Assembly: GCA_027627225.1 (NCBI GenBank)
Contig: CM051025.1
Location: 69,094,069-69,158,068, forward strand
Reading direction: 5' to 3'
DNA: 64,000 nucleotides
Source: Congeria kusceri
Taxonomy: Eukaryota; Mollusca; Bivalvia; Myida; Dreissenidae
The notes under the pieces: generated by a model
What the model was told of the DNA's origin: nothing
What the model saw: the letters and a program-made list of their open reading frames with translations, nothing else
Databases searched by the model: none
Translations under genes and position numbers: made by a program
Shown: piece after piece, positions 8,370 to 51,605 of the stretch
Layout of the letters: the number at the start of each line of letters is the position of its first letter
How positions within the stretch are numbered: position 1 is the first letter of the stretch

Positions 8370-8375
8370 AGATAA
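8370..8375 (+). repeat. Left target-site duplication AGATAA of the large transposon
   Basis: AGATAA lies directly before the terminal TATGGAACGCCAT and is repeated exactly in direct orientation at 32160-32165, just after the inverted copy of that terminus. A 6-bp duplication fits a DDE/integrase-type insertion. Confidence 0.85.
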
Positions 8376-8451
8376 TATGGAACGCCATCACTGCCTTAAC
8401 ATGACAATTATTTTTATGAGCTGTGGATATATCGTAAAAAGATGTACAAAT

Positions 8452-9150
8452 ATATTATATGGTGTTCAATTTTCGTTATATGGTGCCCTTTTTCCATTAT
8501 ATTTTGCTCATGCGTCATTCTATTATGCTTGTTGTTGTCAATATTATGTCTAATTGCTATGTTCTGATGCTAGTTCATCGTTATAGGCTGCTCATTTTCT
8601 ATTATATGATGCTTGTTTGACTTTATACGAGGTGCATCTATTTGTAGATCATTATATGATGCTCATTTTTCACTATATGATGTCAGTTTGCATCTATACG
8701 AGGTGCTGTATGATAATCGTTATATGATGCTCATTTCTCATTATATGATGCTAGTTTAACATTATACGCTGCTTATTTGTAATAACATGATGCTAATTTT
8801 CCATTATATGATGTCATTTTGCATCTTTATGAGGTGTTGTATTTTTATCGTTATATGATGCTCATTTTTCATTATATGATGCTAGTTTAACATTATAAGA
8901 TGCTTATTTTTAATTACATGATGCTAATTTTCCATTATATGCTGTCATTTTGCATCTTTATGAGGTGTTGTATTTTTATCGTTATATGATGCTAATTTTC
9001 CATTATATGATGCTAGTTTGACATTATACGCAGTCATTTTTAATTACATGATGCTCATTTTCCATTATATGATGTCATTTTGCCTCTATGCGAGGTTCTG
9101 CTTGTCCATGGTGCTCATTTTGTATCATATGATGTCAGTTTTCCTTTATA
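8452..9150 (+). repeat. Left subterminal array of 21-bp repeats
   Basis: Imperfect 21-bp units built on TTATATGATGCTCATTTTNCA, with variants where CTCATTTT becomes CTAGTTTAA or GCTTATTTN. Runs of exact 21-bp spacing are visible at about 8710-8760, 8850-8950 and 8990-9065. A larger period of about 131 bp is seen in the recurrence of GATGCTAG near 8748, 8878 and 9009. The array is inverted relative to 31440-32115. It ends just before the transposase ORF. Confidence 0.85.
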
Positions 9151-9262
9151 AACGGTTTTGTCATTTAATAATATGCAATTTTCATTAACATGCGATATAT
9201 TATGCATGATGATATTGTCTTGCTCCTGCATCGTTTTGCACATGCCTTTGCAAAGAAAAAAC

Positions 9263-10606
9263 ATGAATGGAATTGTCGAAAAATTGGGTTTAAATAGTGC
9301 TATTGAGACGTTCAAACATCAGAATATTACGTCAGACATCGTAAGCAAACTATCAGCATATGAAATGGAAATGCTTGGTATTTCAAATAGATCTGTCATG
9401 ATGCAGTTGAGAATTGAATGCAACAAATATGGTGGCATTAAACCAAACAAAGACAGATCTAAAAGCGGCGCACCACAATTTTACATTCCTAAGAGCGTTC
9501 TGCAATATTTTCTAGAAAATGGTTTTAAAATAAGTGAGATTGCGAAGCTGGTGGCTGTATCTGAACGCACGATTTATCGAAGAATGGTAAGATATGGTCT
9601 TAGTCGACATGTATTTTCATTACTTACTGATGACAACCTCGACGGGCATGTCAAAAAAGTAATAAACGACTTCCCATTTTGTGGAGAGAACATGATATTG
9701 CAAATACTTCACCAAACAGGCATTAATGTCCAGCGGTATCGTTTAAGGGACAGCATTCATAGAGTCGACTCAAAAGGGGTTTCAGAGAGAAAACGTGGTC
9801 GTCTTCACAGGCGTGTGTACGAGGTAATGGGTCCAAATCATCTGTGGCACATAGATACTAACCACAAGCTCGTTCGATGGAGATTTGTGATTATAGGGGG
9901 AATAGATGGCTTCAGCAGGATGGTCACGTTTCTCTCGTGTGCAGACAACAATCGCGCAGGCACAGTGTTAAAAAGTTTCAAATCAGGTGTACACACGTAT
10001 GGGATTCCAAAAAGGGTAAGATCTGACCAAGGATTAGAAAACGTGGCTGTTGCAGACTTCATTTTGGCGAAACGAGGGACTGGCAGTATGATTACTGGAC
10101 GCAGTACACATAACCAAAGAATTGAGAGACTGTGGCGGGATGTTTTTGAAGGAGTTTTGTGTTTCTTCTATAATTTGTTTTATTTTATGGAGGACAACGG
10201 GATACTGGACTGCTTAAACATGGTGCATTTAATTGCTCTTCGCTACATATACATGGATGAAATAAATAGAAGACTTAGTCTTTGGGCTCAAGCATGGTCG
10301 ACACATAGAATTAGAACAGTGAATTCGTCTCCGCAAGCGCTTTGGTTATCGGGCCAGCTGCAGTCACCCATTGGCTTTGACTTACCTTCAGCAGATGTAA
10401 ACGACGATAGTGCCGAAGAGTCCGGCGATGAACAAACTGTTGGGATTGGAGAGAGACCAATATTTACACCTCTGGAAAAGATTATCAGTGACCATTGCAT
10501 GGAGATGGTACAAATACAGATCGCTTCCCCAAGACTTGATGTCAATCATGGGATTGATGATTACCTTACATGTGTTGATATCATTAACAGACATAATCAA
10601 AATTAA
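9263..10606 (+). CDS. SAM-HTH-DDE integrase-like transposase
   Basis: 447 codons from the chosen ATG at 9263. The frame is open from 9158, but its first 35 codons overlap the repeat array, and a possible acceptor (TTTGCAAAG) precedes 9263. Residues 1-57 look like a SAM domain ([21 protein letters not shown]). Residues 74-113 form a helix-turn-helix ([19 protein letters not shown]). The integrase core follows: [11 protein letters not shown] (D198), [21 protein letters not shown] (D255) and [11 protein letters not shown] (E288), giving D-x56-D-x32-E with all three acidic residues present. Related single-ORF proteins are widespread in fish and invertebrate genomes as integrase catalytic domain proteins. 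The gene sits immediately inside the left end and should act on both inverted ends by DDE strand transfer. The frame is intact, so this copy may be recent or active. Confidence 0.85.
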
Positions 10607-10667
10607 TGTATCTCGATTTGAAATGAAACACCCATTAAAGAGTATCACCTTTACTTTATTTTTTATA

Positions 10668-11139
10668 ATTAGGGCTGCAACGATTCATTCGATGCCTCGG
10701 TCAATCGACTGAGACTCACCGATTCGATTGTCGATATTTATTCAGTCATTTTCGATTCGATTATTTTACATGTTTACAGAAAAAAATCATAAATCAATAA
10801 ATAAAAAGTATACTTTTGCATCTTTGTCATGTAAACTGATGGCGCCATCATGTTTGCTGTTATACTGTATTAAATTTTCTATTGAAACTGTATAATCATT
10901 TTCCTTTGTTTCTTATTTAGTTAATCATGTATAAGGTACAGACGTTTACATTAACTGATACAATGACATCAATAATAATTAATATATATAATGTATATGT
11001 TCCTCTATTTCAAATATTGACTCGCTAAAATTTAGCTTATATAAATGAAAGATTAATCGAACCAAAGTAATAAGCTTAAAAATATTATTAATCGAAATAG
11101 AATCGAATCGATCCATAGATGAATTGTTGTAGCTCTAAT
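10668..11139. mobile_element. hAT-like MITE with imperfect inverted ends
   Basis: The left end reads ATTAGGGCTGCAACGATTCAT and the right end, reverse-complemented, reads ATTAGAGCTACAACAATTCAT. Both carry the AGRGCTGCAACGA-type terminus common in hAT non-autonomous elements. The interior is AT-rich with many TCGATT motifs facing each other. No clear 8-bp target duplication is visible. Confidence 0.5.
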
Positions 11140-11348
11140 ACCGACATCCATGTCTATGCGCTTAATGGTAGCTTATGGGCTTGACCTAAAACCGTCCAAT
11201 ATGGATAAAATGATGTTCATCTAACTTTTAATATTTGTTTTAACGTTCATCTTTATTTTTCTAACAACATGTTATGTCGATAGGGCGCAGATACCTCCTC
11301 CTGTTCGTGATAGTGCAAACTAGAACTGTCACTGTCGTGCCTGAAATA

Positions 11349-11363
11349 CCCCCCCCCCCCCCC
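11349..11363. repeat. Poly-C run
   Basis: An uninterrupted run of 15 C. It is a length-variable homopolymer with no evident function. Confidence 0.8.
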
Positions 11364-11601
11364 GCATGCCACGTTGTCATAGGGCATTGGCAGTTCAGTT
11401 TTAAGAACTGGGTTTCCAACAATGCTTGCTACTTATAAAGTTTCATCTTGATACCCCATGTAAAATATAAACAATGTGAAATTTCAACTGCATCAGCAGG
11501 AAAGAAAAGTCTTGCCATAGCACGAGTTCCTTTATTTATGATAAGTAACTAATAGCCAAACAATTAGGTACAGCAGAAGAACACTCAATAAACGCATACA
11601 A

Positions 11602-12968
11602 AACAAGAGCTGTCCCAAGACAGCGCGCTCGACTATTCTTCCGCTTTGATAGTATAATCTACATTTTCTGTCAGTCACCTGATATAATGACCACAAAGAC
11701 ATATATGAAGTTGAATATCTGTAGTAGTTATATTGTATATATAAACTTAAAGCTGAAAATTTATAAATTAAAACAAGAAATGTGACCATGCCAAGAAACT
11801 AGATTTTCAACTTTTTGCCAATTCATTTAGTTGAATTTAATTAACTTTGAAAACAAGGTCTGCATCTAAGCTACCTACACACAAAATTACAGCACAATAC
11901 CTCCATCCAAAACACAAGTTATTGAGCGGAAACCATTTTTCCATTTTTAGTAACAATGACCTTGACCATTTTTCCATTTTTAGTAACAATGACCTTGACC
12001 CAACTGGCCCCAAATGCAAACCCACCCTTGGTCTGCATGTAAGCTACCTACAAACAAACTTACAGCACAATACCTCCATTCAAACTAAAGCGGAAGCTCT
12101 TTTTCTATTTTTAGTAACAGTAACCTTGACCCCACTGGCCCAAAATGCAATCCCTCGCTAGATCAGCCTTTAACCTACCTACACACAAAATTACAGCACA
12201 ATATCTCCACCCTAACTGAAGTTATTGAGCGCAAACTTTTTATATATTTTTAGCAACAGTGACCTTGAATTTGACCCTACTAGCCCCAAATGCAACCCCA
12301 TGCTAGGTCTGCATGTCAGCCAGAGATAGGAGTTGTTGCACGCAAACGTTTACCTGAATTTCCTAAGTAAAAAAAGTACAATAGGGTGCATAATTCTGCT
12401 AAATTGCAGGTCAGAGTTATGGGCCTTGGTCGGTGACCTCGCATGATGATCCCGAAGACATGTGTGAAGTTTCAATTGAATATCTGTAGTAGTTACAGAG
12501 ATATGTTCTTGTTGCATGCAAACTTTAACCTGAATTTCAACTTGCACGCAAACCTTAACCTGACATTTCTAAGTACAAAATGGGGGCATAATCCTGCTAA
12601 AAGGCTGGTCAAAGTAGTAGGTCTTGGTCAGTGACTGTTTATTATGACCCTGAACACATATGTAAAGTTTTATTTCAATATCTGTAGTAGAAACAGTGAT
12701 ATGGAGATGTTGCACGTTTACCTGAACCAATTTTCTTAGTACGAAAAGGGGCATATTTCTGCTAAATTGCAGGTCAGAGTTATGGAACTTGGTCAGTGAC
12801 CTCACACAATGACCCCGAACACGTGTGAAGTTTCAATTGAATACCTGTAGTAGAAACAGTGATATTGAGATGTTGCACGTTTACCTTAACCAGAGCATTA
12901 CGCGGACGCAGACGCCGACATTTGGGTGAGTAGTATAGCTCGGACTATTCGGTGAATAGTTGAGCTAA
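11602..12968 (+). mobile_element. Pearl/Helentron-like repeat with tandem core
   Basis: The head reads AACAAGAGCTGTCCCAAGAC followed by AGCGCGCTCGACTATTC. The core has imperfect tandem units containing GTGACCTTGACCC (11.84-12.30 kb), then units of about 180 bp with CATAATTCTGCTAAATTGCA, TTATGGGCCTTGG and TGAAGTTTCAATTGAATA. The 3' end folds as a hairpin (TAGCTCGGACTATTC facing GAATAGTTGAGCTA) followed by CTAAAA. Bivalve pearl elements and Helentron-associated elements are known for such tandem cores and 3' hairpins. The same head recurs at 19770 and 62522. Confidence 0.55.
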
Positions 12969-13706
12969 AACTGAATAAAACTGGGGTCACCGCTTTGGGA
13001 CGGTCCATGCAAAGCATTGGCGGTTTAAACCGGTTTTATTGAGCTCCGAACCTCACACTTGGCCCAGATTTATTCATGTCAAATTAATGACTCTAGGTCA
13101 AATGCTTTAAGTTCTACACAAGAGACAAACTTCTCAAAGACGACAGAAAAAAAGCTAATCTACTTTAAGCCCCCACTGGAAAATGATATATATATATATA
13201 TATAATATCATTTAGAAGCTTCTCATAGATTTGTCCACATACAGCTTAATTTTATTTAGTGATCTTTATATTTGTCAAGCATTTTAACAAGTCACGTTAG
13301 ATATAAATTGTAATCTATAGATACAATGTAATCACATTTAGCACACCACACCGTAACAAAAGCTCACCACGTGCACTTCGTCAAGTGACTACTATTATGA
13401 AAACTGACAATACAAATGAGGGAAGTAAAGAGCATTTATTTAAAAATATGCATAAGATAGATAGATAGATATTTTATTTCAGACTTGTACATTGTACATC
13501 GTCTACAACACATAAAATAATATAAATACAATGTCAACGTGAAATGCATGGGTTAACAATATTTTGGATATTAAATAATATATTTAAAATTAGTTATTCA
13601 ATATATACCACATTAACCTAACATACTTGTATATACTTGTATATATGTATTTTATTTGCTATCTGAAATATATAAGACTAAACATGTTTGCAATGGAGAT
13701 GAGCAT

Positions 13707-16700
13707 TTAGACAAAAGTGTTATGGAATGCAGAACGTACACTCAAAGCTTCTTTTAAAAACATAAAAAGATTTATAAGTTCAGTTCTATTATTAGTTTTC
13801 AACAATTGGACATATTTAAAAACCGATGGGCGTGCACGGTATTTTAGTTTAACATATTTATTTCTTAGATCAGAAAAGCAGGGACAAATACAAATAAAGT
13901 GATATTCGTCTTCGACGTCAAACTTGTTATTTTGTAAACAATATAAACAGTATCTTTCATTTCTAGGTGTATTATTTCTATTATATCTACCGGTCTGAAT
14001 CCGTAAAGGATGAGCAGACATTCTCAATCTACACAGATAAAACCTTAGGCTTCTCGGGACAACATTTAAATATATTTCATATTCTATAGAAGTTTTGAAT
14101 TGTCTATAAACATCCAGCATCGAACTATTCTCGAGTAAATTAAACCATTCCTGTTTAAATGCATCAATTACTCTATTTTTAAAGGTTCTTATACATGTTT
14201 TAACATCTATGGAATGTACATTATCAAATACAAAAGATAATCCGTAATCGTTTAACAATTTTCTCAACTGAAATACCCAGTTACGATTACCATAGTCACA
14301 ATCAGCTACAGCTTGAACATATACACGTTTTAAAATAATGTTATCCGTGGATACAATTTTAAGCCAATACTTGACAATACGAACATATCTGCTTATATAC
14401 AGGGGGTATCTGCCCAGTTCACCGTAGACAGCGGCGGTGCAGGTATTAGAAGGAACATTTAACAATCGTTTACAAAATTTCAAATGAATTATTTCAATTT
14501 CTTTACTTCTGGTGTGACCCCAAAGTTCAGACCCATAGCTTAAAATTGAACCTACAAACGAATCAAACAATTGACATAATAATTTTGGTTTTAAGTCATA
14601 CATTTTACATTTAGTAAGCAAAATATTCATTGCCTTAAGAGCCTTTCCAACCAGATGCTCTTCATTTAGGTTAAAACTACCGGTATATTTAAACACCAGT
14701 CCAAGGTAATTAAAATTATCTACTACTTCTACTGGTTGGCCATTGTAAGACCAACTTTCGGTGGGCAAAAGCCCACCTCGCTTTCGGAAAACCATAATTT
14801 TTGTTTTTTCTACATTAACTTGCAATCCCCATGTATTGCAGTACTCGTATAAATAATCTAAATGATTTTGAATTTCGTTTGGAGATTTACCAACAATAGC
14901 CATGTCATCAGCAAAGAGTAAAAGTAACAAAATTATATCATCAATTTGTAGACCTGAGTCAATATCATTTTGCAAATACAGTTCTAAGTCCTCAACAAAG
15001 AGAGAAAACAACAGAGGAGACATTACCTCCCCTTGTCGTAGTCCTACTGCATATACGAAGTAATCAGAATAGGAAGACAACGATTTTACACATGATTTTA
15101 CTTTTCCGTACATATCGCGCACAATTCTTAGGATCTTGCCTTGAATTCCTGATTTGTACAATTTAAACCATAACCCATTTCTATATATAGAATCGAAGCA
15201 TTTCATCATATCGACGAAAATGACGTATAAACGCTTGTTTTTATATGAGTAATGTTGTATTAAAGACAAAAGAATGAACGCAGCATCAATAGTAGATCGC
15301 CCTTTTTGAAATCCGAACTGCGCGTCCGAAATAAGATTATTTTCATTACAAACTTGTTCGACACGGTTATTCAATACAGTTGTAAATAGTTTAGATAGGC
15401 AGCTCACAAGCGTAATCCCCCGATAGTTATTAACGTCATTAACCGGACCCTTTTTGTGAATTGGAATAATAATACCTTCTGCCCATGCGTCTGGAAAATA
15501 TCCAGAGTTAAGAACTGTGTTAAACAAGTCACATATATGCGAAGACAATATATCAACTGTTTCAATGAAATATTCATTTAACAGATAATCAGTACCGCTT
15601 GATTTGTTACGCTTCAAAGATTTAATAGCTTTTACGATTTCATCAACGCTGATCGGCCTATCAAGTTCAGGGTAAACATCATTAGGCATGTTAAAATCGT
15701 TTTGCTCGTTAAAAGTTTCTGATTCCTCATTTCTGCAATTAAAAAGATTACTGCTAATATTTTCAAAATATTCGCGAAAGTCCCCTAAGGAAATATCTTC
15801 AGAATGTTTACGTGATCGGGATTTAAAATGTTTCCAAAAATCTTTAGGTTTAGATTTCTTCATCTGTTCAAGCTCAAGCATTTTACTTTTATAATGTAAA
15901 CGTTTCTTTTTCCTAACTATATTTTTATACCTAGCTTTACATTCACATAAATTAATCCTGTTAGATTCAGTTCTCTGAGAATTAAATAATTTAAGAGCGT
16001 CAAAATAACAAGAACGCGCTGTTTTACATTCATTATCAAACCACACATTTTTAAATTGTATACTATCTTTGAAACACATTTCATCTTTAAAATAGCACGT
16101 TTTACAAAACAGGGGATCTGCTACGCTTCGTATTGTATTAGTAAAATCATTTAGCATATTATTAACAGAATCTCTGTTTGAGCAATCAACGTTGTCCACA
16201 ATAGCATTAAACTTGATCAAATTACCTATAATTCCTGAGCGAAATTGCTCCCTAGAATGCACATTCCACTTATATTTCATTTCCGCATGACTAGTTTTAT
16301 CACGTCTATTTTTATTACAACACAATGCAAAGTTTACTGGGGCGTGATCGCTCCATTCATTAAAACTATCAATACAAAAACGAGATAGTTGTGAAAAATT
16401 ACAATCGGCAGTGAGCAGATAATCAATTACAGAACAGCCGTTATGCGACAAAAAAGTATACTGATTTGAGTTTCCTAGCCGGCCATTAACAATACGCATA
16501 CCGGTTGCCTTACAAAAGTCTAGCAACTTAATACCATGATTATTGTGCCTTTGATCTAACGAGGCCCTGCTAGGAGTACAATCTGGACTATAATCGATTT
16601 CATCGATGCAAATATTCACTCTATCATGCAAAATATAATCATTCTTTTCACCAACACGACTGTTAAAATCACCGCATATATAAATTGCGCCCTTATTATC

Positions 16701-17141
16701 ATAATCTGAAATATCGTTTTCTAAAATTTGAAATAAGTCAACACTTAAATAGTTATAGACTGGCGAATCCTCACCCCAAATGTAAACGCCACATATAAAA
16801 ATATCTTGTTCCATGTTAAAAAATACATGATCTAGTCTTAACCAAATTATGGCGTCATAATGATTTTTTATAATTTCTATACCGCCCTCTAAATAATCCC
16901 TGTAACAAAGCAATAGACCGCCACTACTTCGTTTGGCATTTCTATTTTGGAAAGTCCTGTAAAAGTTATGGGTAATATAACCATTTAGTTCTACGTTAGA
17001 ATTTGATTTACACCACGATTCATACAAAAAACAAATGTCATAATTTGCCAATATCCCAACAAAATCAACACTTTCCTTCTTATCTTGCGACAGACCATTA
17101 ATGTTCCACGATAAAACAGACAGTTCATCTCCTGCGTACCC
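13707..17141 (-). CDS. Retrotransposon ORF2: endonuclease and reverse transcriptase
   Basis: About 1144 codons, fully open. The apurinic-type endonuclease domain begins with SWNINGL, which is in frame but upstream of any methionine, followed by NYDICFLYESW, ICGDFNSRVGEKND and SDHAPVNFAL. The reverse transcriptase has SSGTDYLLNEYF, YRGITLVSCLSKLF, FVDMMKCFDSIYR, GLRQGEVMSPLLFS and the catalytic LLLFADDMAI (near 14903-14914). The C-terminus has a Cys/His cluster (YCLYCLQNNKF, YHFICICPCF). The first AUG-like codon in the usual track falls inside the endonuclease, so the functional start must be earlier. The frame begins directly after the ORF1 stop and in the same frame as ORF1. It makes the new DNA copy by target-primed reverse transcription. 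Confidence 0.85.
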   Translation of the reverse strand, partial: GYAGDELSVLSWNINGLSQDKKESVDFVGILANYDICFLYESWCKSNSNVELNGYITHNFYRTFQNRNAKRSSGGLLLCYRDYLEGGIEIIKNHYDAIIWLRLDHVFFNMEQDIFICGVYIWGEDSPVYNYLSVDLFQILENDISDYDNKGAIYICGDFNSRVGEKNDYILHDRVNICIDEIDYSPDCTPSRASLDQRHNNHGIKLLDFCKATGMRIVNGRLGNSNQYTFLSHNGCSVIDYLLTADCNFSQLSRFCIDSFNEWSDHAPVNFALCCNKNRRDKTSHAEMKYKWNVHSREQFRSGIIGNLIKFNAIVDNVDCSNRDSVNNMLNDFTNTIRSVADPLFCKTCYFKDEMCFKDSIQFKNVWFDNECKTARSCYFDALKLFNSQRTESNRINLCECKARYKNIVRKKKRLHYKSKMLELEQMKKSKPKDFWKHFKSRSRKHSEDISLGDFREYFENISSNLFNCRNEESETFNEQNDFNMPNDVYPELDRPISVDEIVKAIKSLKRNKSSGTDYLLNEYFIETVDILSSHICDLFNTVLNSGYFPDAWAEGIIIPIHKKGPVNDVNNYRGITLVSCLSKLFTTVLNNRVEQVCNENNLISDAQFGFQKGRSTIDAAFILLSLIQHYSYKNKRLYVIFVDMMKCFDSIYRNGLWFKLYKSGIQGKILRIVRDMYGKVKSCVKSLSSYSDYFVYAVGLRQGEVMSPLLFSLFVEDLELYLQNDIDSGLQIDDIILLLLLFADDMAIVGKSPNEIQNHLDYLYEYCNTWGLQVNVEKTKIMVFRKRGGLLPTESWSYNGQPVEVVDNFNYLGLVFKYTGSFNLNEEHLVGKALKAMNILLTKCKMYDLKPKLLCQLFDSFVGSILSYGSELWGHTRSKEIEIIHLKFCKRLLNVPSNTCTAAVYGELGRYPLYISRYVRIVKYWLKIVSTDNIILKRVYVQAVADCDYGNRNWVFQLRKLLNDYGLSFVFDNVHSIDVKTCIRTFKNRVIDAFKQEWFNLLENSSMLDVYRQFKTSIEYEIYLNVVPRSLRFYLCRLRMSAHPLRIQTGRYNRNNTPRNERYCLYCLQNNKFDVEDEYHFICICPCFSDLRNKYVKLKYRARPSVFKYVQLLKTNNRTELINLFMFLKEALSVRSAFHNTFV

Positions 17142-18140
17142 CTACTGCTTTATCGGCTGTCCATTGATGTACAGCGTATCATACGCCAACCAAGCACGCT
17201 TGCCCTGTCGCTTTGCCTCCTTCATTTGTGGAACGAGACGTCGACGCTTTTCTTGCACTTCCGGGGGAAACTGTTCATACACATTATAATTTGTGCCCTT
17301 AAGTTGTGGCCACTGACGCCTGACTAGCTCCCTGTCCTTAAAAAATGCAAATTTCGCCACAATTGACCGTACCTTACCATGCACTGGCTGAGAAGGGGTA
17401 CGATGCACTCGCTCGAGTTGTAGCCCATCCACCGTCTCTTTAGGGATTTTAAGCTTTTCATGCATATGTTCCCTAAGCTTACGTTCGGTGATGACTTGGG
17501 ATTCATTACCCTGGGAGTTATCCTCTTCAATTCCAGTGAAGACCAGGTTGTTCCGCATTGATTGGGATTTTAGGTAGGCAACCTCGTCACTAAGCTGCTG
17601 CCGCTGCTTTTCGATATCCGCCACTCGGGAATCCAGCATACCAACTCCTACGTCGGCGGCTTCTACCTTGACTTCTAGGCGAGTTACCTTTTCGTCCGTG
17701 CGCTTACATCGGTCATCAAGCGCCAACCAGACCTTCTTAAGCTCACGCTAAAAGTCCGTAACCTTCCTTTCAAGAATATCAATAGTGTCTAGTCGCTTCT
17801 CTATTTTAGTTAACCTTTCATTGAAGCTGTCTGCAATGCTCTTCATATAGTCCATGAGATCCCTATTGGTTGGCTCTCTTCCGCTTTCAGCCATCTTGTT
17901 CTCACTACCACAATGACCATTAAACACGCTAGAATCCACAATATCAATACTACTATTACTTTCATAAAGAACTGAGTTTGCAATGCCCAAGATATCGCTA
18001 ACGCATATGCTCACATCCTCACACTCATCAGACGGGCCTCTATGTTTTGATAGTTTACACTTACTTGTATTGTCCGAAATATCCGAAGTACTTCCACTAC
18101 TATTTCTGTTTTTTCGTTTAGCCTTTCTAACTTTGCTCAT
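17142..18140 (-). pseudogene. Retrotransposon ORF1 (nucleic-acid chaperone type) with one in-frame TAG
   Basis: The ATG is at 18140. The N-terminal 130 residues are Ser/Lys-rich, then a coiled coil (about 17850-17570). The C-terminal half resembles the transposase_22/L1-ORF1p fold (SMRNNLVFTGI, RVHRTP, REEXXRRQWPQ-like helix, YEQFPPEVQEKRRRL, WLAYDTLYINGQ). A TAG at 17748-17750 interrupts the frame in the middle of the coiled coil, with coding sequence continuing in the same frame on both sides. It ends with TAG at 17142-17144, after which ORF2 continues in that same frame. The internal TAG may be a disabling mutation or a suppressible stop. Confidence 0.7.
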
Positions 18141-18439
18141 AATTAACAAACTGAGCAATTTATAAAAATAAACACATTGTATGAATCCACCACTTTTACA
18201 CTCACAAAAGCTCAGTTTATTAAGAAAAAAACAATTTTTTCACTCCCGATTCAAAAACACATCTTTACCGCGCTATCACGTGACATCCACGTAAGGTATA
18301 GCAGAACATATAGCAGAACATTTTAAATAGTTGAACTGAGAAAAAAAAACAATATTGAACAAACAGACAAACAATTGATGAAAGTCTACACTATATGAAA
18401 ATTACATATACACAAAATGCCCTTATAAAGGAAGGCAGA

Positions 18440-19766: not shown

Positions 19767-20940
19767 CAAGAGCTGTCAGAGGACGGCACGTTTGACTATT
19801 TGAAATATATCAATTGGGTACATACTTTTGACAGTGTACGGGATATACAACAGTTAAAAACAGATCTGAATTAAGGCAAATCGTTCATCAAATTATTCCA
19901 AGTTTTAAGTTTTTAAGTTCAAGACTTTAGAACAAAAACTTAATCAAAGTTTATGCATAAGTGGACATACCTATGTAAATGTTTAGTGGAAAGAAGAATA
20001 TAATTCTTTTCAAAATATAAAACAGAGTTATGTGGATTGTTGCTCCGGAAACTGGAGTTGATGACAACAGTATATTCTAAGTTTCGAGTAAATAACATCT
20101 ATTGTTTTGAAGTAACAAAATTTTTGAAAATAAACTTGAACCAGAAAATCTTAGTGAAAAGGTGTGTAGCTGTCACAATACAAAACAGATTTATGGGGAA
20201 AATTGCCCTTTATACATGTACTGAAGACAAACGTGTATATCAATGTTCAGGAAAATAACAAAACTTTTGAATTTAAACTTTTACCATAAAATCTATTTAA
20301 AAGGGGGCATAACTCTTGTCACAATACAAAACAGAGTTGCGGACAATGTTGCCCCTGATACTGAAGTTCATAAAAAAGGTGGATGTCAAATTTCAAAAAA
20401 ATAACTTCTATAGTATTGAAGTAGCAAACTTCAAAACTACATAACTCTGCCAAAATACAAAACATTGTTTAATGTGGGGAATGTTGCCACTGATACTGGA
20501 TTTAATGACAAAAGTCAAAAGTGAATGCAAAGTTTTAAGTAAAAAACTTCTTAGTTTTGAAGTAACAAAACTTCTGAGTATAAACTTTAACCAGAAAACT
20601 AAGTAAAAAAGGAGGCATAACTCTGCCAAGATATAAAACCAGAGTTATGACAAATGTTTCCCCTGATACTGGAGTGGACGACAAACGTGAATGCCAAGTT
20701 TCAAGCAATAAATTCTAAAGTTTTGAAATGACAATACTTTTGAATATAAAATTTAACCAGCAAATCTAAGTGAAATGAGGCATAACTCTGCCAAAATACA
20801 AAACAGAGTTATGGAAAGTGTTGCTGCTGATACTGAAGTTGATGATAAATCATGTAAATCAAGTTTCAAGTGAATAACTTGTGTAAGTTGCAAGACTTTT
20901 GAAGGCAAACTTTTAACAAAAGTTCAGACAGACACATTTA
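19767..20940 (+). mobile_element. Pearl/Helentron-like repeat with tandem core
   Basis: The head reads AACAAGAGCTGTCAGAGGAC, related to the head at 11602. The core has about six imperfect units of 170-180 bp containing CATAACTCTGCCAAAATACA, CAGAGTTATGG, CCTGATACTGGAGTTGATGA and TTTTGAAGTAACAAAACTT. No clean 3' hairpin is visible. It lies just downstream of the HECT gene stop. Confidence 0.5.
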
Positions 20941-21152: not shown

Positions 21153-24100
21153 TTACACCATACCAAAAAATGTGTTTGAGAAAGCCAAGTCATAAAAATA
21201 AAACAAAGTCTGGTCTGGTGGTAAAGGCCTGTCCGTAGTTGGTCTTGGGAGATTCAAAGTGTTGGCACATGTGTTAGCTGTAGGAAGAAAGCTATTTGCC
21301 ACCTCTGGAAACCTGATTGTTGGGTGCATTCTGAAGCCAAGCAAGGGTTCTTCTTCTGCGCCAGTGCCAAATTTGAGGATCTTGTTTAAGGTGACCGTCT
21401 CTCTCCTACCACCTGAGTAAAAAAAGATGGTCGATAAAGCATAGTCTGCATCATACAAATAATAAAGTGAGATGTGTCTGCAGAAAAATTAAACAAGACA
21501 GCCCTAGGTGGCTCACCTGATTACAGAGCAAACTAAAGCACCACTGGCAGCTATATTTTTTACTTGTAGAAATTACGTATTGACCTTGTTTTTGACCCGA
21601 TATGACCCACTTTCAACATACCCACATATCGTCCCATATATCAATTTCAGGGGTGTGGAAATCCTATGCCCGACTCGTCCAACATGGGTAATTTGAATGT
21701 GAAGACTTTAATGTAAAATTTTCCTGTAAACTTCTCTGCGGACAAGAACAATTTTGATGCTATAAAACAATAATACAAGTTGTAAGCTCGAGAAAAAATG
21801 CAACAGGTCTTTCAATGTCAGATGCAAACAAAATTTTCACAGGCTCTGATTTTAAGACTAGTGACCACAACAGTATTCAAGTCAGTAAGATGTTAAACAA
21901 GAATGAAAAATAAACGACACGTCCATATTTCGGGTCAAGATTTTCAACATCTGGATTTAGGCAAGTTAATATCAGACTTGTACTGGCAGTCATTTTATTC
22001 TTCTTTTGTTCTTAAATTTAACAAGAGCTTTGTCACAGACAAAACAGAAGTCCCCTACCGGGTTAATGTTGTCGAAGTAAGAACAGGATCTACATTAAGT
22101 TTTATTAACCTAGCTTAAGTACTTTTTAGTTATGACAGGATGCAGACTTTAGCTTTCAATTATTTCTGTAACCATAGCAACCACAATTTTGGTCTGACGA
22201 AAAAACTTAAATAACGTGCATATTCACCATATGGCCCTCTATCCACGTACCGAGTTTCAGCAACCTAGCTTACTAGTAAGTACTTTTGGAGTTGTCGCAG
22301 GATCCAGATTTTAGTTTTCACTTATTTTTGTAACCATAGCAACCACATTTTTTGTCTGACGAAAAAAGTGAAATAACGTGCATATTCCCCATATGGCTCT
22401 CTATCCACATACTGAGTTTCACCAACTTAGCTTAAGTACTTTCTTCGTTATCGCAGGATCCAGATTTTTCGGACGGACAGACGGACGGACAGACGGACAA
22501 AACTGGAATACTAGTAACGTGCATATTCCCCATGTGGCCCTCTATCCACATACCGAGTTTCATCAACCTAGCTTACGTACTTTTAGAGTTATCGCAGGAT
22601 CCAGATTATAGTTTTTATTTATTTCCATAACCATAGCAACCACAATTTTTGTCAGACGAAAAACTGAAATATCGTGCATATTCCCCATATTGCCCTCTAT
22701 CCACATACCAAGTTTCATCAACGTAGCTTAAGTATTTTTTGAGTTATCGCAGGATCCAGATTCGGACGGACAGACGGACTGACAGAGAGACGGACGGACC
22801 GGGGGTAACCTATTGTCCCCTCCGGTTACACCGGTAGGGGACTAAAAATCTCAATCATGTCCTTTATAAACGTTGCTAGTATACATCAAGTGCTGCATTT
22901 AGGTGTTCATACAGTTTTAAGTTTATTTCCAAATACTTTAGGTAGAGATGTCCATGAGTAAACATGTATTTGAAATAGTACACAATGTACATATTAGACG
23001 TATATCAAGGTCACTGGTACAGTTTTGATCACTTAAGAGTTTTAAGACATAAAGTATGTACGATTATATTCAGTACAATAATAAACATTACCAAATTTCA
23101 CAGTGAATTATTTATGCAGCTAACATTAATTAATGGTCGAATAGGGCGTATTTAGAACTGAACAAAAAGCAAATCTGATTGTGATATGTCAAGATTTCCC
23201 TGTTTTTAAAAACATTATTATTTCTTACAAGAAAAAGAATTATATTTAATTTTAATACTTAATGCATTAATAGGAATTTGCAAATTACAATTTTTTTTCC
23301 ATAGCTTGAGAGCCATTTTTTACTTTACAATTGACCTTGGCTGGCGGACAAGAAGAATTTTACAATGTACTTGTCCTTGGAGAAGTGAATAATTTTTATA
23401 TATCCAGACCTCTGTCAATAAATAAGGTAATTTTTCTGCAAGTCTACCAGGTAATGCAGATTGGGTCACAAGGGTAAACAAGCCTTTTTCTGATTTGTCC
23501 TAATTTTTGACCTGAGGCAACACATTAAAGGAGCATGATTCCTCAGAAGGAATAAATGAAAGGAAAGAATTATATTTTAAAGAAGGTATAGCAGTTTTTG
23601 TTCACTTTCTTTGTTTTGAAAATATAATGTTTTATTTACCAGCTGCTTCCCGCATGTATCTTGTAAATGCTGCATAAACTTTGCTTTCACCGCCTCTACT
23701 ATTAGACCCCATTTCGGAAAAGAACGGGCGCAGCAAGTGCGTCAGGAGTCTCACCGTCATGGTAGTACTTGTTGGTCTTAGTAAATACCTAAATGACGGG
23801 AGAGTGAGTCCAACCTGTATCAGAAAAAAAAACATAACATTATACCTAAAACCATTGGTTATTTGGCAGTAATTACAACTGTCATGTTATAGGGTGTGGA
23901 CAGTAAATATAGCAAGCAATGACTCCAGAAACTCTATCAGCAGAGAAATTCTTGTTATCATCCACAAATCGCATTACAAAACACCAACCATAAACATAGG
24001 TGATCAAATCATTGTAAAGCATTGTTTTGTGTTTTGGCCTGTTCTTTGAGCAAGAAGACAGTGTCAACCTATGGTAAGGAGCAAAAACTGAATATGATTT

Positions 24101-26765
24101 TTTTGTGATTCACTGTTTAATACTTACTGTATATAGACCTAGCCAGTCTAAGCCAATCCGTAGATTCATAATGCACTCTGATCTTGTCTCTGCCAAGCTA
24201 AAGATCTGCTCTTCATAGTCATGAATGAAAAATGGAATCTTTCCATTCTGTAAGATGCTCATGCCTGAGGATAACAAAGTTTATAGCTAACCTCTTACTC
24301 AGATTTGAAATTAATATTAATTTTGTAGATAACTTTACATTTCTGTATCACAAAAAGTAAAACATTCTGCAGGTATATTAAACTGAATATCAGATATGCT
24401 TATGAAAAGAACAAATAAATATTTTACACAATTTCAGATTATTTTAAACTATGAGGAACAACAATATTGTATCCATTTGAACAAGGCAGTCCAAGAGACA
24501 GCTATATCCCCAGCCGAGATTTTTTTAACCTTGAAGTGGTGACCTTGATTTTGAGCCAGCGTGACTGACTCATGCCTTGTGCACATCGTCCCAATGACCT
24601 AAACATTGTGGCCATGTTTGATGAAAATCCTTCAATGGGTAAAGGAGATATGGACCATGCACGAAAAAAGGCTCAAACTTTTGACCTTAAAGTATGACCT
24701 TGGCCTTGAGCCGGCGTCACTGACTCGTGCCTTCTGCACATCGTCTCAATGACCTAAACATTTTAGCAAAGTGTCATGAAAATCCTTCAAAGGGTATAGG
24801 AGATATGGAGCGGACACGAAAATGGTGGCTCAAACCATTGACCATTTACCCCGTCCACGAACTTTACGGATGACCCTCGTACATTGTTGTATAAATTAAT
24901 ATTTAAAAAGTATCTTTTTGACAACATTGGTATTAGTTAACATAATGAACACCTTCTGAATTTCGGCTTTTAGGTTCATCAGAAAAAATCGCTTGATTCA
25001 ATAATGAGGAAATTTTTGTATACCATTAATATTTTTTCCCCAAAGTGATTGACAACTAAAGCCACTTACTGAAGAGCCTTCCAATTGTTATATAGTCCTC
25101 TAGCATATGTTCACGGAGTCCATTATCAAAGTACTTTTCCTTTATTGCTCCGAGTACAAGCTGGAAAAATTCTTTTCTCGGACCGCCAAGGTCATGGGCC
25201 ATCTGAAAGGGTAATACATATAAGTTTGTATTAAATAAATTGAATCATTTTTTTCCCTACCATGGGCATATTTTCGTCAATTTTTTGGGCCGAATTTTGC
25301 CCCCCCCCCCCTCCTATGAAAGAAGAAAAAAGAAATTTTAATTCTGCATAACATTACAAAATTGTGTCTACAAGTATTTTATGCTGTTAAACATTACCTG
25401 GGGTTATTTTCAATTTTTAATAAGAATATCTAATTAAAGTGATTAGATATTCATTATTTTAAATAAATTAAAAAAATATTCCTAAATTCCCCCCGGTAAG
25501 GTATTTTGCGTAAACGTTCCCCCTGGAAGGGCCCAGGCCTGATATCCGCAGGAGTGAGAATATGCCCTGCTGCAACATTTTACATCCAATTTCTTTACCA
25601 AATTAACAATGGCTGATAAAATTTTGATTTTTTACGAAATCAAACATTTAAGCCAAATCTGTAATTGAGTAGCTATAATAAATCATCTTCAAATTACCTC
25701 ATCGTAAAACTGTACCTCCAATACCAGTCTTGGGTTTTGAATAGCCTTGATTTCATCAAAGGAAGTTTCAAGGATGTTTAGCCTATCAACATTTATGAAA
25801 TTGGTTTCCCCTGCTTCCATGGTGTTTTCATTAGAGTCAATGTCAAGCTGTCTTCCAGTCACTATAACTGATTGCAGATATCTTAGCATTTCAACAGAAT
25901 CTTCTATTTTATGACTAACCATGTGTTCTATGGCCTTCTCAACCACAGTATGTACATTATCTGAATGTGGATCAAAAGCTGAATTGTTGCTGTCATTTGA
26001 CTGTTCTACAGCAGTATCAACATAAGCAGATTGCGCATCAGATTCCATATTCAAAAGAAGTTGACTGTTGTGGTCATTAGCTTCGATCACTTGATTGACA
26101 TGTTCACTTGAGACAAAGACAAAACTGTCAGTTCAAGGGTTATTGCAGTTGCTGCTTGGTCGGTTTCCAAATTTGTCTCGATCGGATCTGGATCTGCGAC
26201 TCTTGACATTCCTCTTGGCAGTGAGATCTCAGATTTTGAACTTCAATCTTTTGACTACATTGTCTACATTTTTCTTTTAGGTCAGCATCAGCCGTCTCTA
26301 TTACAACCGGTTCGGTAGATAAATTTTGTTGGATTGGTCGAACATAAATTTTTGCCTGAGTACCGAGGAATTTTTTCAACTCTTTAATGGTCCATGGGCA
26401 GTCAATAACTTTCAAACTCGGGCTATTTGCTTGACATCGAAGCAATTCAAATCCTCCGCAATTTTTCAGCTGGGGAAATCCTATGTATTCGTTGCTATCA
26501 TTCTTTTCTTCCGAACATATCTTTTCCATGATGTTGTCTTGACAACTGAACTGTATTTTTTTAGTACCCAGTCCTGCCTTCATCAGCATTTCTTTAATAT
26601 CAGCTGTTGGGACTTTATTACTGTTTTTGTCACTTAAACACACTATTGTCACAGTCCATGGTCGATGAGGCTCTTTTGAGATTGGTCTTTGTCTTGAATT
26701 TCTCCCAGTACGAGAGAATAGCAAATGTCGCTCCCATCCAGCTCCAAAGTCTCCCACACGACTGG
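21153..26765 (-). CDS. HECT-type E3 ubiquitin ligase of the transposon (SAM exon annotated separately)
   Basis: Exons in reading order: 26765 to about 26140 or 26200, about 26104-25698, 25202-25070, 24264-24128, 23814-23640 and 21445-21153. Exon 1 (VGDFGAGWERHLLFSRTGRN, FPQLKNCGGFELLRC, YVRPIQQNLSTEP, a CxxC/H cluster) matches the pre-HECT region of the G2E3-like HECT proteins scattered through fish, coral and mollusc genomes. The last exons form the HECT domain: VQFYDE joined to MAHDLGGPRKEFF, LEDYITIGRLF, SILQNGKIPFFI, and the C-lobe LPTANTCANTLNLPR with the catalytic Cys at 21267-21269, ending YDLAFSNTFFGMV. All four HECT introns have consistent phases. The first-to-second exon junction is unresolved: a stop at 26140 and a frame change need an unrecognised intron or a frameshift. 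The protein should transfer ubiquitin from an E2; the substrate is unknown. Confidence 0.75.
21497..21740 (+). repeat. Dispersed repeat (GACAGCCCTAGGTGGCTCAC family)
   Basis: Starts AACAAGACAGCCCTAGGTGG and continues with AGCAAACTAAAGCACCACTG and a run on TTTTTGACCCGATATGACCC. A diverged relative lies at 26940-27270 (GAGTTGCTCATCTGAGTATA, AACTAAAGCCCCACTTGCAG). Both sit beside or within the HECT gene region. Non-coding. Confidence 0.45.
22018..22845 (+). mobile_element. Pearl/Helentron-like repeat with tandem core and 3' hairpin
   Basis: The head reads AACAAGAGCTTTGTCACAGA. Four imperfect units of about 160 bp contain CCATAGCAACCACAATTTTT, CGTGCATATTCCCCATATGG and GAGTTATCGCAGGATCCAGA. Short GACGGACGGACA runs follow two of the units. 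The 3' end is a strong hairpin (CCCCTCCGGT, loop, ACCGGTAGGGG) followed immediately by ACTAAAAA. It lies in the long intron between HECT exons 23640 and 21445. Confidence 0.6.
24480..24850 (+). repeat. Tandem dispersed repeat in a HECT-gene intron
   Basis: Two units of about 170 bp share GACCTTGATTTTGAGCCAGC-type sequence, GTGACTGACTCATGCCTT, GCACATCGTCYCAATGACCT and TGAAAATCCTTCAAWGGGTA. It lies in the intron between 24264 and 25070. Non-coding. Confidence 0.55.
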
Positions 26766-28059: not shown

Positions 28060-28890
28060 CTTTTTTTAAGTAATGGTGACCTTGACCCCCCACCCGTCAG
28101 ATGCAATTCCAAGTGAGGTCTAAATATAAGGTACCCATGTGTGAAGTTTTATCACAAAAGCTGAATCAGCTCTCGGGACATTGAACGGAAAACTTGCCAT
28201 ATCTAGGAATGGTGACCTTGACCTGGACCCAACCCATCCTAAAGGCAATCCCAAGCTAGGTCTCCATATAAGGTATTTATAAATTAAGTTTCATTGCAAT
28301 ACTTCAATTAGTTTGCAAGATATTGCTTGGGAAACAGTTTTTCTATGTTTGGTAAGGGAGACATTGACGCCACCTATCCCAGATGCAATCCCTAAGAAAT
28401 GTCTTGATATAAGGTACCTGTGTGTGAAGTTTCATGGCAGTAACTTAACGTGTTCTCGAGTTATGAGCGAAAACTGTTTTTCTATTTATAGTAATGTTGA
28501 CCTTGATCCCATCTACACCAGTTGCAATTCAAAGCAAGGTCTCATTTCAGGAATATATAATTATGAAGTTTCATCACAAATAAAGCTTAAGTTATTTCCA
28601 AGTTATTGAGTGGAAACCGTTTTGCTATTGAAAGTAATGTTCACCTTGACCCCACCTACCCTAGATGCAATCAAAAGCGAGGTCTCTCTTAAAGTATCCA
28701 TTATGAAGTTTTATCACAATAAGTCAAATCATTCTCAAATTATTGAGTGAAAACCATTTTGCTATTTTCAGTTATGGTGACCTTGACCCTGCCTACCCCA
28801 AATACAATCCCAAGTGAGGTATTGATATAATGTATCTAAGCATGAAGTTTCATTAAGATAACGAAATGGGTTCTCAAGTTATTATCAACA
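28060..28890 (+). repeat. Tandem repeat of about 150 bp (GTGACCTTGACCC type)
   Basis: Five to six imperfect units share GTGACCTTGACCC, CCAGATGCAATCCCAAG, AGGTCTNNATATAAGGTA and TGAAGTTTCATCACAATA, ending with GAGTTATTGAGTGAAAACC. It resembles the core at 11.84-12.30 kb and is probably a pearl-like core without recognisable ends. Confidence 0.55.
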
Positions 28891-28899
28891 CCAAAATAA

Positions 28900-30216
28900 A
28901 CAATTTTGAAAAATTTAAGCAATAGTTTTTATAAATTTTTGTCCTAATGACAAAAAAGAGAAAAAATGAGGTTTCGTTTTGTTCTTGTTTTCTTCATTTT
29001 AGGCACAAAATTTCATACTTATTCAGTTGCAGCTGCAGAAGTTTGAATGATATTTAATGGAACACATTAAGCAATTTAGCAAATTGTTTTAAACAGAAAA
29101 CAAAGTAGCAGAATCACAATAAAACTTTACTACAGACAACTTAAGTTTCATCTTAAATAACAGTGACCCAGATGTATGTTTTTTAAAGGTTAAACATTAT
29201 GTTCTAAATTTAAATAAAACATAATTACACATAATAATAATACAACATTAGTACTTACAAGTGTTAACATACCTAAACAGTAGATGTCCTTATTTCAATT
29301 AACCACATGCATACCAAGTAGATGATAATTGTTGAAAATCAGCAGTGCCACATCAATGTTAATTAGCACAAGTTACTGTTAGCTTGTTTTAGCCATATTT
29401 ATTTTATTCACTTGATATGAGTTGTAAGAGATTAGTAGTTTGATTCAAGAAGTAGAGACCAGGGCCCTGTTTTACTAAGCTACTTACGCAATTCTTAGAC
29501 TTGCGCGCACAATTTAAATTCGGTATTGGCTCTTCACATTACTATTAGCTTACCGGTAAAAGAACTCATGGTTTCTATTATAACATGACATTTTAAATTT
29601 CAAGAAATGATTAATTTGCCTCAATCTGTTATTACAAAATTCCAAGAATTTAAAATATATACGTAAAAATAAGAATTGCGTAAGCTTAGTAAAACATTCT
29701 GCATTATTCTTTATAAAACGTATTATTGTAATCTCCTGTAGAAATATTTTGAACTTGTTAATATTTGCTTCTCATATGAAACCTTATACAAAAGTACCTT
29801 TGCATAACTAGCTTGCACACACTTTCAGTGTTGCTAGCAGGCCTGTTATCAGCAGTTCTATTTAACACATTTGTCTCTCTCGAAACTCTCCTATTTGATT
29901 CCTATATTTCAGAAATAAATATCTTGTCTTTCCTAAAAACCAGTTTGTCTCCATAGGAAATTGATCTGCTATACAAATGGAGTGACCCTTTCTCAGCCCC
30001 CTGTGTCTTTTTTTCTAATAAATCCAGATTAAAAACATGTGGTTTAAATTAGTGCATGGATGGTAGTTTTACTTCTTATTAATAAATCTGCTGTAAAACA
30101 AATGGGGTGGAATAGATTTTAGCTTGTAGAATTGTGTGATAAATGATATGTTTGGCTGTATTTGCTTTAATTGAAAATTGTGAACTCATCAATAATAAAC
30201 TGATTAGTAACGCCAA
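28900..30216. other. AT-rich stretch without recognised features
   Basis: Putative intron between the SAM exon and the pre-HECT exon. No open frame, repeat structure or splice-bounded exon with recognisable sequence is apparent. Confidence 0.4.
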
Positions 30217-30370
30217 AAAAAAAAAAAAATTATTATTATTATTATTAATTAAAATAATAGCATTAGAAGTAAAATTAATAATAATCAATTTATGTTGCAT
30301 CATCATCATCATCATCTTCTTCTTCTTTTATCAGCATCATTATCACTACAACCACCACCACCACCACTGC
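30217..30370 (+). repeat. Compound microsatellite
   Basis: Successive A-run, (ATT)n, (CAT)n, (CTT)n and (ACC)n tracts. The overlapping open frames are simple-sequence artefacts. Confidence 0.85.
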
Positions 30371-31076
30371 CGATTTTCAATGATTTTCATCAACAATTTA
30401 AGGAGAAAGGAGATTATGACACAGACATACAGGCACAGACAATTTTCCACACAGTCATCTTATGCAATAAAATGACTTACCATCACCAATATTTTTTACA
30501 TTAGTAAAATCTCATAAAAATGGGTTGATTTAGCTTTATTTATTGTATTATTGCTGTAGCTCTACAAACCTCTAAAAAATGTCTTGCTAACAAAAGATAA
30601 GACTGTGTTAAATAGAATGAATAGCTTTATGTCATTAGCGAAAGCATTATGTGTCCAAATGTTTGAACAACATAAAAGGCGTCAAAATAGGACAGCGTCA
30701 ATTTAGGTCACTTGAGGATATGTTAATCCCTCAGTCCCCACCTGCAAATATTAATATTTTAAAGTAGGGTTTAAAAATAGTCAGTCAGTAAATAATTAGC
30801 CCATGGATTTTGTTCAAATTTTACATAGTTTGCTGAACCAGAAGTGTGCATCAATAAATACTATACACTTACTGACCATTATCATAGGAACATATTTCTT
30901 ACGCGTGTCCGGATATACGTACTGTCCGGATTAACGTACCGCACCAGTATGGCGAATATTGAAAATTGCTAAATCGTTGTTTTACCCTAGTATTGGGCGG
31001 TTGGTGGACTGAGTCAAACATGGAATTACGTGAATCAAGGCATTAACACTGAGTTGTTAAGTTTTTTTCCTAACCT

Positions 31077-31334
31077 GCTGACAGTGGAGCCTTGGTCATT
31101 GCCAATGACACTGGTTTCGCTGGGACTTGGAGTGACGTCACGTTGTTGGATTTCCCGTACCTTCTCCCTCAGCCTTACCCTGTCACCGATTGTTGTCACG
31201 CCAAGTCGGCATAGTTCATTGTCTGACAGAGTCAGCAAATTTAAAAACTCTATTCGTTGGCTAACGAAGTTGTTTAACAGGCCATGTAGCCCTATTTCTT
31301 GCAAAACACTTTCGATTGTTTGGCGGCCCGCCAT
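31077..31334 (-). CDS. SAM-domain exon, probable first exon of the HECT gene
   Basis: The ATG at 31334 starts MAGRQTIESVLQEIGL, then LNLLTLSDNELCRLGV and GDRVRLREKVREIQQ, a recognisable SAM-type five-helix pattern (residues 1-66). The frame runs on to a stop at 31035, but a donor-like CAG|GTTAGG sits near 31076, so splicing to downstream exons on the same strand is likely. It starts about 100 bp inside the right repeat array, mirroring the transposase at the left end. SAM domains mediate protein-protein oligomerisation. Whether it joins the pre-HECT exon at 26765 is inferred from strand, spacing and the known SAM+HECT neighbours, not proven. Confidence 0.65.
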
Positions 31335-31439
31335 AACGATTTTTCAAATGGCAAGATAGCAACTAAGGGAGTTGGTGTTTTGACACCATGGTAAAAAATA
31401 GCATTTTATCAACGCAAATTACCATCGTGTATTGACGAT

Positions 31440-32115
31440 TAAGCATCATATACTGTCAAACTACCAACATATAGTGGACAATTAGCATCATGTAATGATA
31501 AACAAGCAACATATAATGTAAAACTAGCATCATATAGTGGAAAATGAGCATCATGTTATGATAAATAAGCATCATTTAATGTCAACCTAGCATCTTATTA
31601 TGGAAAATGAACATCACTGTATGGTTATAAGCAGCGCATAATGTCAAACTAGCATCATATAATAGAAAATGAGCATCACGTAGTATTAAACAAGCAGCGT
31701 ATAATGTTAAACTAGCATCATACAATGTAAAACTAAAATCATATAATTGAAAAAGACATATTGTGATGATAAATAAGCAGCGACTAATGTCAAACTAGCA
31801 TCATATTATGGACATTGAACATTATGTTATGATAAATAAGCAGTCCATAATGTCAAACTACCATCATATAATGGAAAATGAGCATCATATAACGGACAAT
31901 GAGCATCATATAATGGACAATAAGCATCATATAATGGATAATGAGCATCATATAATAGAAAATTATCATCATGTTATTATAAATAAGCAGCGTATAATGT
32001 CAAAGTAACATCATATTATGGAAAATGAGCATCATGTTTTAATAAATAGCAGCGTATAATGTCAAATTAACATCGTCTAATGGAAAATGAACACCATATA
32101 ATGAAAAATAAGCAG
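31440..32115 (-). repeat. Right subterminal array of 21-bp repeats
   Basis: The inverted counterpart of the left array. On the plus strand the unit reads GAGCATCATATAATGGAAAA plus one base, with variants containing GCAGCGTATAATGTCAAACT. Exact 21-bp spacing is clear at about 31860-31965. It ends at the terminal inverted repeat. Confidence 0.85.
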
Positions 32116-32159
32116 CGTATAAAAGTTTTTCTCATGTTAAGGCGTTATGGCGTTCCATA

Positions 32160-32165
32160 AGATAA
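32160..32165 (+). repeat. Right target-site duplication AGATAA
   Basis: Directly follows the terminal CGTTCCATA and is identical to 8370-8375. Confidence 0.85.
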
Positions 32166-51548: not shown

Positions 51549-51605
51549 CGATTAAGAAAATCGTATGTACTAGAGCGAGGTTTCAAAATCTTGACATTTA
51601 CTGAA

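Follow-up and report, generated by a model that had tools for sequence, protein, structure and literature searches.

We analysed a window of 64,000 nucleotides from the bivalve Congeria kusceri, positions 69,094,069-69,158,068 of contig CM051025.1, and searched the corresponding 1.549-Gb assembly of 1071 contigs. Coordinates below refer to this window unless a contig is named. The window segment 8376-32159 is a genuine DNA transposon that was recently active, and we assign it with high confidence to the two-gene, integrase-like DNA transposons of the IS3EU/GingerRoot type, with a DDE transposase gene facing a HECT ubiquitin-ligase gene. Sequence comparison supports its mobility as a unit, the two genes, a SAM domain common to both proteins, the subterminal arrays and the presence of the gene pair in divergent families. 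As a whole, we consider it likely that this is an IS3EU/GingerRoot-type element whose ligase, docked by its SAM domain, would act at transposase-coated ends. In the following, the window element and its relatives are called the first family, and one more divergent family of transposons in the same genome the second family.

Ends, copies and extent of the element

The window element is bounded by inverted ends of about 29 bp, TATGGAACGCC..., with AGATAA on either side. The features concerned are as follows.

8370..8375, no strand: target-site duplication AGATAA, left copy, identical to 32160-32165
32160..32165, no strand: target-site duplication AGATAA, right copy, identical to 8370-8375
8376..8404, plus strand: left terminal inverted repeat, starting with TATGGAACGCCAT
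32132..32159, minus strand: right terminal inverted repeat, ending with GGCGTTCCATA, pairing with the left end
8453..9143, plus strand: left subterminal array, 24 units with a 21-bp period (unit scan, scanned unit CATTATATGATGCTCATTTT)
31415..32125, minus strand: right subterminal array, 32 units with the same 21-bp period, inverted (unit scan)
13460..18300, minus strand: nested long interspersed nuclear element (LINE) with endonuclease and reverse transcriptase, open reading frames 13707-18239, not part of the transposon

The left end TATGGAACGCCATCACTGCCTTAACATGA and the reversed right end TATGGAACGCCATAACGCCTTAACATGA differ by one mismatch and one single-base indel over 29 bp, and the terminal letters are TATGG..CCATA. 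Other copies were searched with the first 125 bp of the element, which gave at least 40 matches, and with its last 140 bp, which gave at least 238 with array units included. The end matches were paired by contig, order and strand, and the ends were then aligned on the 13-bp terminus. Among the end matches listed, 27 further first-family copies with both ends were found, ranging from 1.65 to 19.5 kb (14 of 16.1-19.5 kb, one of 14.0 kb and 12 of 1.65-7.9 kb); single ends, left-only or right-only (e.g. C173, C50, C45, C29, C5:10771950 and C5:13045924), were left out of the count. The terminus matched at 12-13 of 13 positions at both ends of the 28 copies, and TA..TA termini were present in the window copy and in all 27 others. 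Exact 6-bp duplications flanked 26 of the 28 copies, window included. In control comparisons between non-partner flanks, identical 6-mers occurred in 2 of 754 cases, C11b against C9b in both directions, both with GAAAAC. Copies C3 and C150, identical in their flanks, were taken as one insertion, so that the 28 copies correspond to 27 insertions, 25 of them with exact duplications. These 25 distinct target sites have G or C at position 1 in 16 cases and at position 6 in 18, the inner four positions being mostly A or T, a mild preference for S-W-W-W-W-S 6-mers.

The interiors of ten longer copies were aligned to the window copy and showed 96-99% identity in most blocks, the remaining blocks, including arrays or tandem repeats, being 91.7-95.7% identical. 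Deletions aside, the ten copies are co-linear with the window interior and contain both genes or their remains; C8b, C9a, C3 and C150 exhibit one common internal deletion (window 11050-12952). A preliminary description of this DNA had reported inverted termini at 8376 and 32159 flanked by AGATAA, which we found again, and had proposed that the unit moved as one piece. The 28 two-ended copies, 26 with exact 6-bp duplications and ten with a co-linear interior, bear this out, and the genome search with both ends yielded further loci with both ends and both genes. When the flanks of the window insertion were joined, they matched in the assembly only their own two flanks and a 41-bp partial sequence elsewhere, and no empty site was found. 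Five truncated first-family left ends (query 1-88) lie on C9 at 30929, 206600, 220774, 396489 and 410663, at regular intervals of 14.2 and about 175.7 kb, which suggests that they belong to a large segmental repeat or to a repeat made by the assembly.

The same description had given the transposon a size of 23.8 kb; the transposon and its 6-bp duplication stood, the size did not, since a LINE of ~4.84 kb was inserted later. The frames of this LINE are open over 1144, 201 and 163 consecutive codons, with endonuclease and reverse transcriptase in the first, and an ATAG run is present at its left junction. DNA of window 13460-18300 was in none of the ten longer copies read. Nine of the ten run on across the LINE point, six of them checked letter by letter, and a deletion in C8a spans this point. 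Because the ten longer copies are without the 4.84-kb LINE, the mobile unit is, judged from these alignments, ~18-19 kb, and the 23.8 kb of the window copy is inflated by the nested LINE. Without it, the window copy measures ~18.9 kb, similar to C17, C15 and C13a (18.2-18.6 kb).

The two inverted repeat arrays noticed earlier were recovered as 24 plus-strand units at 8453-9123 and 32 minus-strand units at 31415-32105, each of 21 bp and scanned with as many as 6 mismatches of 20 allowed; in the opposite sense, the scan gave one unit at the right end and none at the left. Four short copies that were read (C14a, C6, C5a and C16a) keep the ends and arrays and little else, all four with exact duplications. 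Three of them join window 8376-9284 (or 9336) to 31373-32159, with C16a having a 148-base piece between, and all four look like internal deletions. Because the short copies keep the ends and arrays together with exact duplications, these parts are marked as the putative retained cis part of the element. Since the ends also occur on copies of just 1.65-2 kb, the element could be taken as two short inverted-repeat elements that mobilised the DNA between them by chance; the single co-linear interior of the ten longer copies, with both genes or remains, and the deletion-like structure of the four short copies make such a composite very improbable.

Transposase, HECT ligase and their common SAM domain

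The first gene is read from the left array inwards.

9263..10606, plus strand: transposase, 447 amino acids from the Met at 9263, SAM-like/helix-turn-helix (HTH)/DDE (open frame and Pfam rva_4)

The open frame 9152-10606 comprises 484 codons and matches Pfam rva_4 (7.7e-74), in agreement with the intact DDE transposase announced in the preliminary description. The protein consists of a SAM-like region (residues 1-60), an HTH (about 77-111) and a DDE core (185-369). Residues D198, D255 and E288 are invariant in 40 aligned transposases, and a structural model (mean predicted local distance difference test score, pLDDT, 82) places them on strands 194-200 and 251-255 and on helix 285-311. All 40 relatives matched rva_4 and rve, with the HTH upstream, and the HHCC zinc family was not among the Pfam matches listed for the transposase relatives (best 25 of 52 families). 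SAM_1 was matched in 21 and SAM_2 in 16 of the 40 aligned relatives (E <=0.1), the window transposase itself having no SAM match among those listed at this threshold. The SAM assignment relies on Pfam and on profile comparison, since the list of structure matches was filled by the catalytic core and is uninformative on SAM. This core resembles IstA, TnsB and retroviral integrases, the last being the best VIA-align matches. The first family has 25 transposase loci in this genome, and 12 of 17 matches spanning query residues 1-446 are stop-free. In total, 1504 transposase homologues were found at E <=0.001; those named among the best 120 include bivalves, a coral and a hydrozoan, and the best named relative among the matches listed is from Dreissena polymorpha (72% identity).

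The integrase-fold enzyme, the large size, the 6-bp duplication and the retroviral best matches would also suit a Polinton/Maverick or another virus-like element. Polintons/Mavericks encode a type-B DNA polymerase and capsid genes. No type-B polymerase or capsid gene was recognised among the frames scanned, which cover part of the element and could miss split genes. Aside from the LINE, the frames between the ends that reach 120 codons belong to the transposase and to HECT exon 2, with one more lying antisense to HECT exon 1, and ten further frames of 87-110 codons have no Pfam match (E <=0.01), leaving a virus-like element a negligible probability. A viral origin was rejected, the transposase and HECT profiles finding no relatives in viral contigs. 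The Mimivirus HECT protein of PMC6027436 has no bearing on the question of HECT in transposons.

The second gene faces the transposase and runs on the minus strand from 31334 down to 21153, in six exons with GT-AG borders.

31075..31334, minus strand: HECT gene exon 1, SAM domain (Pfam SAM_1, E 4.4e-7)
25698..26761, minus strand: HECT gene exon 2, middle alpha/beta region, C2HC-type finger and start of HECT; out of frame
25070..25202, minus strand: HECT gene exon 3, part of the HECT N-lobe
24128..24264, minus strand: HECT gene exon 4
23640..23814, minus strand: HECT gene exon 5
21153..21412, minus strand: HECT gene exon 6, HECT C-lobe with motif TANTCANTL (Pfam HECT, E 1.3e-8)

The HECT ligase gene described earlier is thus real, with the qualification that it has six exons and that exon 2 is out of frame in the window copy. 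In copy C8b, the six exons give a single frame of 676 codons, with SAM (Pfam 7e-6), the middle alpha/beta region, a C2HC-type finger (by eye) and HECT (4.6e-8). The Cys of the TANTC motif, which we take to be the catalytic residue of HECT enzymes, is invariant in 17 of 17 aligned ligase relatives, and HECT residues are conserved across molluscs and corals. Compared with the PDB, the ligase profile found AREL1, E6AP, ITCH and others, with an agreeing fold. From domain, conserved Cys and fold we infer a HECT E3 ligase, with predicted ubiquitin transfer. The best named relatives among the matches listed, from Pinctada and Saccostrea, show 46-48% identity. The cellular ligases AREL1, E6AP and those of the NEDD4 family have the HECT catalytic domain in common with the transposon ligase and possess other N-terminal parts, whereas the transposon ligase has SAM, the middle alpha/beta region and the C2HC-type finger N-terminal to HECT.

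The N-termini of the transposase and the ligase were then compared as profiles and aligned over 60 columns (Prob 98.4, E 4e-14), the maximum for 30 column-shuffled controls being 0.31. In the PDB, both N-terminal profiles recovered the SAM domains of ANKS6 and of tankyrase, the latter of which is reported to polymerise in the title of PMC4980433. On these comparisons, the N-terminal SAM of the ligase is homologous to that of the transposase. Between the two families, the SAM domains have 26 of 58 residues in common for transposase against transposase, 23 of 58 for ligase against ligase and 11-17 of 58 for transposase against ligase. Because the SAMs of the same protein are more alike across families than those of transposase and ligase, the split between the two SAMs appears to be older than the two families.

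Second-family transposases are 48-49% identical to the first over query residues 145-442. Their elements follow the same plan, with ends TATGGAACGCCTAG..., arrays of 21-bp period and other sequence, a facing HECT gene, and SAM on both proteins (by eye). Seven copies were tested, of which four had both ends in the stretches examined, two of these, both of 21.1 kb, with the exact duplications CAAGAC and CATGTC. For the pairing count, 78 HECT matches were reduced to 19 divergent loci by removing those of the first family and any second exon of a locus already counted; the 95 transposase matches were reduced to 92, three being second fragments of copies already listed. A facing transposase lay 11.6-12.6 kb off at 13 of the 19 loci, compared with 0.02 expected under random placement. 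Two of the 13 pairs fall outside the second family: the transposases at C8:36.4 Mb and C3:42.6 Mb show 50% and 57% identity to that of the first family, and the HECT matches there 34%. Judged from these matches, the transposase-HECT pair is present in at least four element groups of this genome, first family included. Second-family transposase matches were also observed head to tail, at steps of 20.80 kb on C459 (within two opposed groups) and of 20.06 kb on C741, as though complete elements followed one another. At C7:39089.6 kb, a single base separates a second-family left end from a right-end sequence. Tandem insertion, circles or an artefact of assembly would account for these arrangements.

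The element was placed by its termini, duplication and transposase features, as compared with published descriptions. As far as described in the accessible part of PMC10045372, IS3EU/GingerRoot elements have TA..TA termini, usually a 6-bp duplication, and a DDE integrase-like transposase without HHCC; termini, duplication length and transposase type are those of the window element. The IS3EU guess of the preliminary description fits accordingly, with TA..TA ends, a 6-bp duplication and an integrase-like transposase without HHCC among the matches listed. The same part of that paper does not mention HECT or ubiquitin and describes neither a transposase SAM nor 21-bp subterminal arrays. Two other groups were rejected on the duplication lengths given there, 6 bp being found here: IS481EU (about 4, 15 or 25 bp) and Ginger1/Ginger2 (4 or 5 bp). 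The TET-bearing IS3EU elements of fungi, in the accessible part of PMC12730594, have ends TAYGG..CCRTA, a 6-bp duplication and an alpha-kinase facing the transposase, with a TET/JBP gene between. They resemble the window element in ends, duplication and the presence of a second enzyme gene facing the transposase, and differ in the nature of this gene, an alpha-kinase in the fungal subgroup and a SAM-HECT ligase here; this part of the paper is without HECT or ubiquitin. The deubiquitinases (VTD) of Helentrons, in the accessible part of PMC9741609, are another case of a DNA transposon with a ubiquitin-pathway enzyme, for which later domestication was suggested; Helentrons are rolling-circle elements, and their enzyme removes ubiquitin and is a domain of the element's own frame, whereas the window ligase would add it. 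In the literature searched, we found no description of a HECT gene in IS3EU/GingerRoot or bivalve transposons; with Repbase and subscription papers outside this scope, an earlier description there of HECT in IS3EU is possible. IstA (IS21), TnsB (Tn7/CAST) and retroviral integrase have the same catalytic fold, at 8-17% identity in the rows listed. To our knowledge, none of the three is accompanied by SAM or HECT.

Other sequences in the window

Tandem repeats of ~155-166 bp, some of them with similar GGGGCATAATTCTGC-type units, are located at window 12375-12892, 20019-20868 and 62585-63224, inside the element and 30 kb away, and are probably a dispersed minisatellite. At 51604-52406, a 73-bp unit is repeated in 11 nearly perfect tandem copies (98% match). 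Just beyond the right end of the element, 33298-34705 (minus strand) contains the remains of a transposase in broken frame (DDE_1, E 7e-13; HTH_Tnp_Tc5, 9.2e-4), presumably of pogo/Tigger type. An exon-like frame at 53539-53970 (minus strand) with a sub-threshold DUF4537 match is a possible host gene.

Possible role of the ligase in transposition

Integrase-fold DDE enzymes cut DNA ends and join them to the target with a stagger. For the window element, we infer that it moves by cut-and-paste and not by copying, that its arrays are bound, that docking is by SAM-SAM contact, and that the ligase is active on the targets proposed below. The HTH of the transposase would bind both inverted 21-bp arrays and bring the ends together and, because of the enzyme family, the transposase would cut at the TATGG ends and join them to the target with a 6-bp stagger. 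Because the array units are spaced two helical turns apart, many transposases would lie on one face of the DNA, where they could polymerise via their N-terminal SAM. In the reading that we prefer, the ligase would then dock onto the transposase-coated ends by SAM-SAM contact and ubiquitinate proteins there. These could be proteins of the host that act in silencing or repair, or else the transposase, whose modification would dismantle the complex. The common domain and the conserved pairing are the reasons for placing the ligase at the transpososome, and we put this docking role forward tentatively. In the broader form of the proposal, to be held with similar reserve, the lineage may encode a dedicated ubiquitin ligase aimed by SAM at the transpososome, the 21-bp arrays being where a SAM polymer would land.

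Several observations weigh against this picture. Copy C11c is without a duplication and C275 has one mismatch, and two of the four two-ended second-family copies lack an exact duplication. At the right end of C4b, just 2 array units were counted, although its duplication is exact; loss of units after insertion and dispensability of the array would both explain this. At 6 of the 19 divergent HECT loci, no facing transposase was in the list, which holds the best-scored candidates only, and 11 of the 13 facing pairs are second-family, the 13 pairs coming from about three families and not being independent. Of the ten longer copies read, five have an open HECT frame. In the window copy, this frame breaks down within exon 2; in C3 and C17 there is a shift close to its end, C13a has a stop and a shift, and C4b and C13b are without some exons; both gene frames are open in 2 of the ten. 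Among recent copies (the window and eight of the ten longer copies, C4b and C13b being excluded for missing exons), the ratio of non-synonymous to synonymous polymorphism (pN/pS) was 1.29 for HECT and 0.57 for the transposase, and the HECT coding sequence diverged by 0.80% versus 1.30% for its introns 2-4. Purifying selection on HECT is not apparent at this divergence of ~0.8-1%, which gives little power. The role proposed for the ligase is a prediction from sequence.

The open HECT frames in only 5 of ten copies, the pN/pS above 1 and the short copies that moved without HECT are what one would expect of passive cargo, meaning a gene of the host that became enclosed by the ends and has no role in transposition. 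This we consider unlikely: the gene, its place and its orientation are the same in families whose transposases share ~48-57% of compared residues, SAM is common to ligase and transposase, and HECT residues are kept across molluscs and corals. The short copies are also without transposase and could use both proteins in trans. The common SAM would equally bring the ligase to the transposase if it served as a brake, ubiquitinating the transposase and limiting copy number, which would suit the modest size of the first family with its 25 transposase loci. We regard a brake as rather unlikely, with no specific point against it. Sequence does not separate the roles of helper, brake and passenger.

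A transposase and ends are commonly regarded as all that a cut-and-paste element requires. A second enzyme, conserved in position beside transposases that have only about half of their residues in common, and tied to them by SAM, points to a built-in way to alter host or transpososome proteins, and SAM binding and the catalytic Cys offer an experimental handle on how such an element may overcome silencing or dismantle its own complex. The annotation of HECT genes in invertebrate genomes calls for caution, as these genes may belong to mobile elements. If the SAM-docked ligase reading is true, many HECT families in the annotated genomes of bivalves, corals and other animals would consist of transposon genes, and animal transposition could depend on ubiquitination encoded by the element itself.

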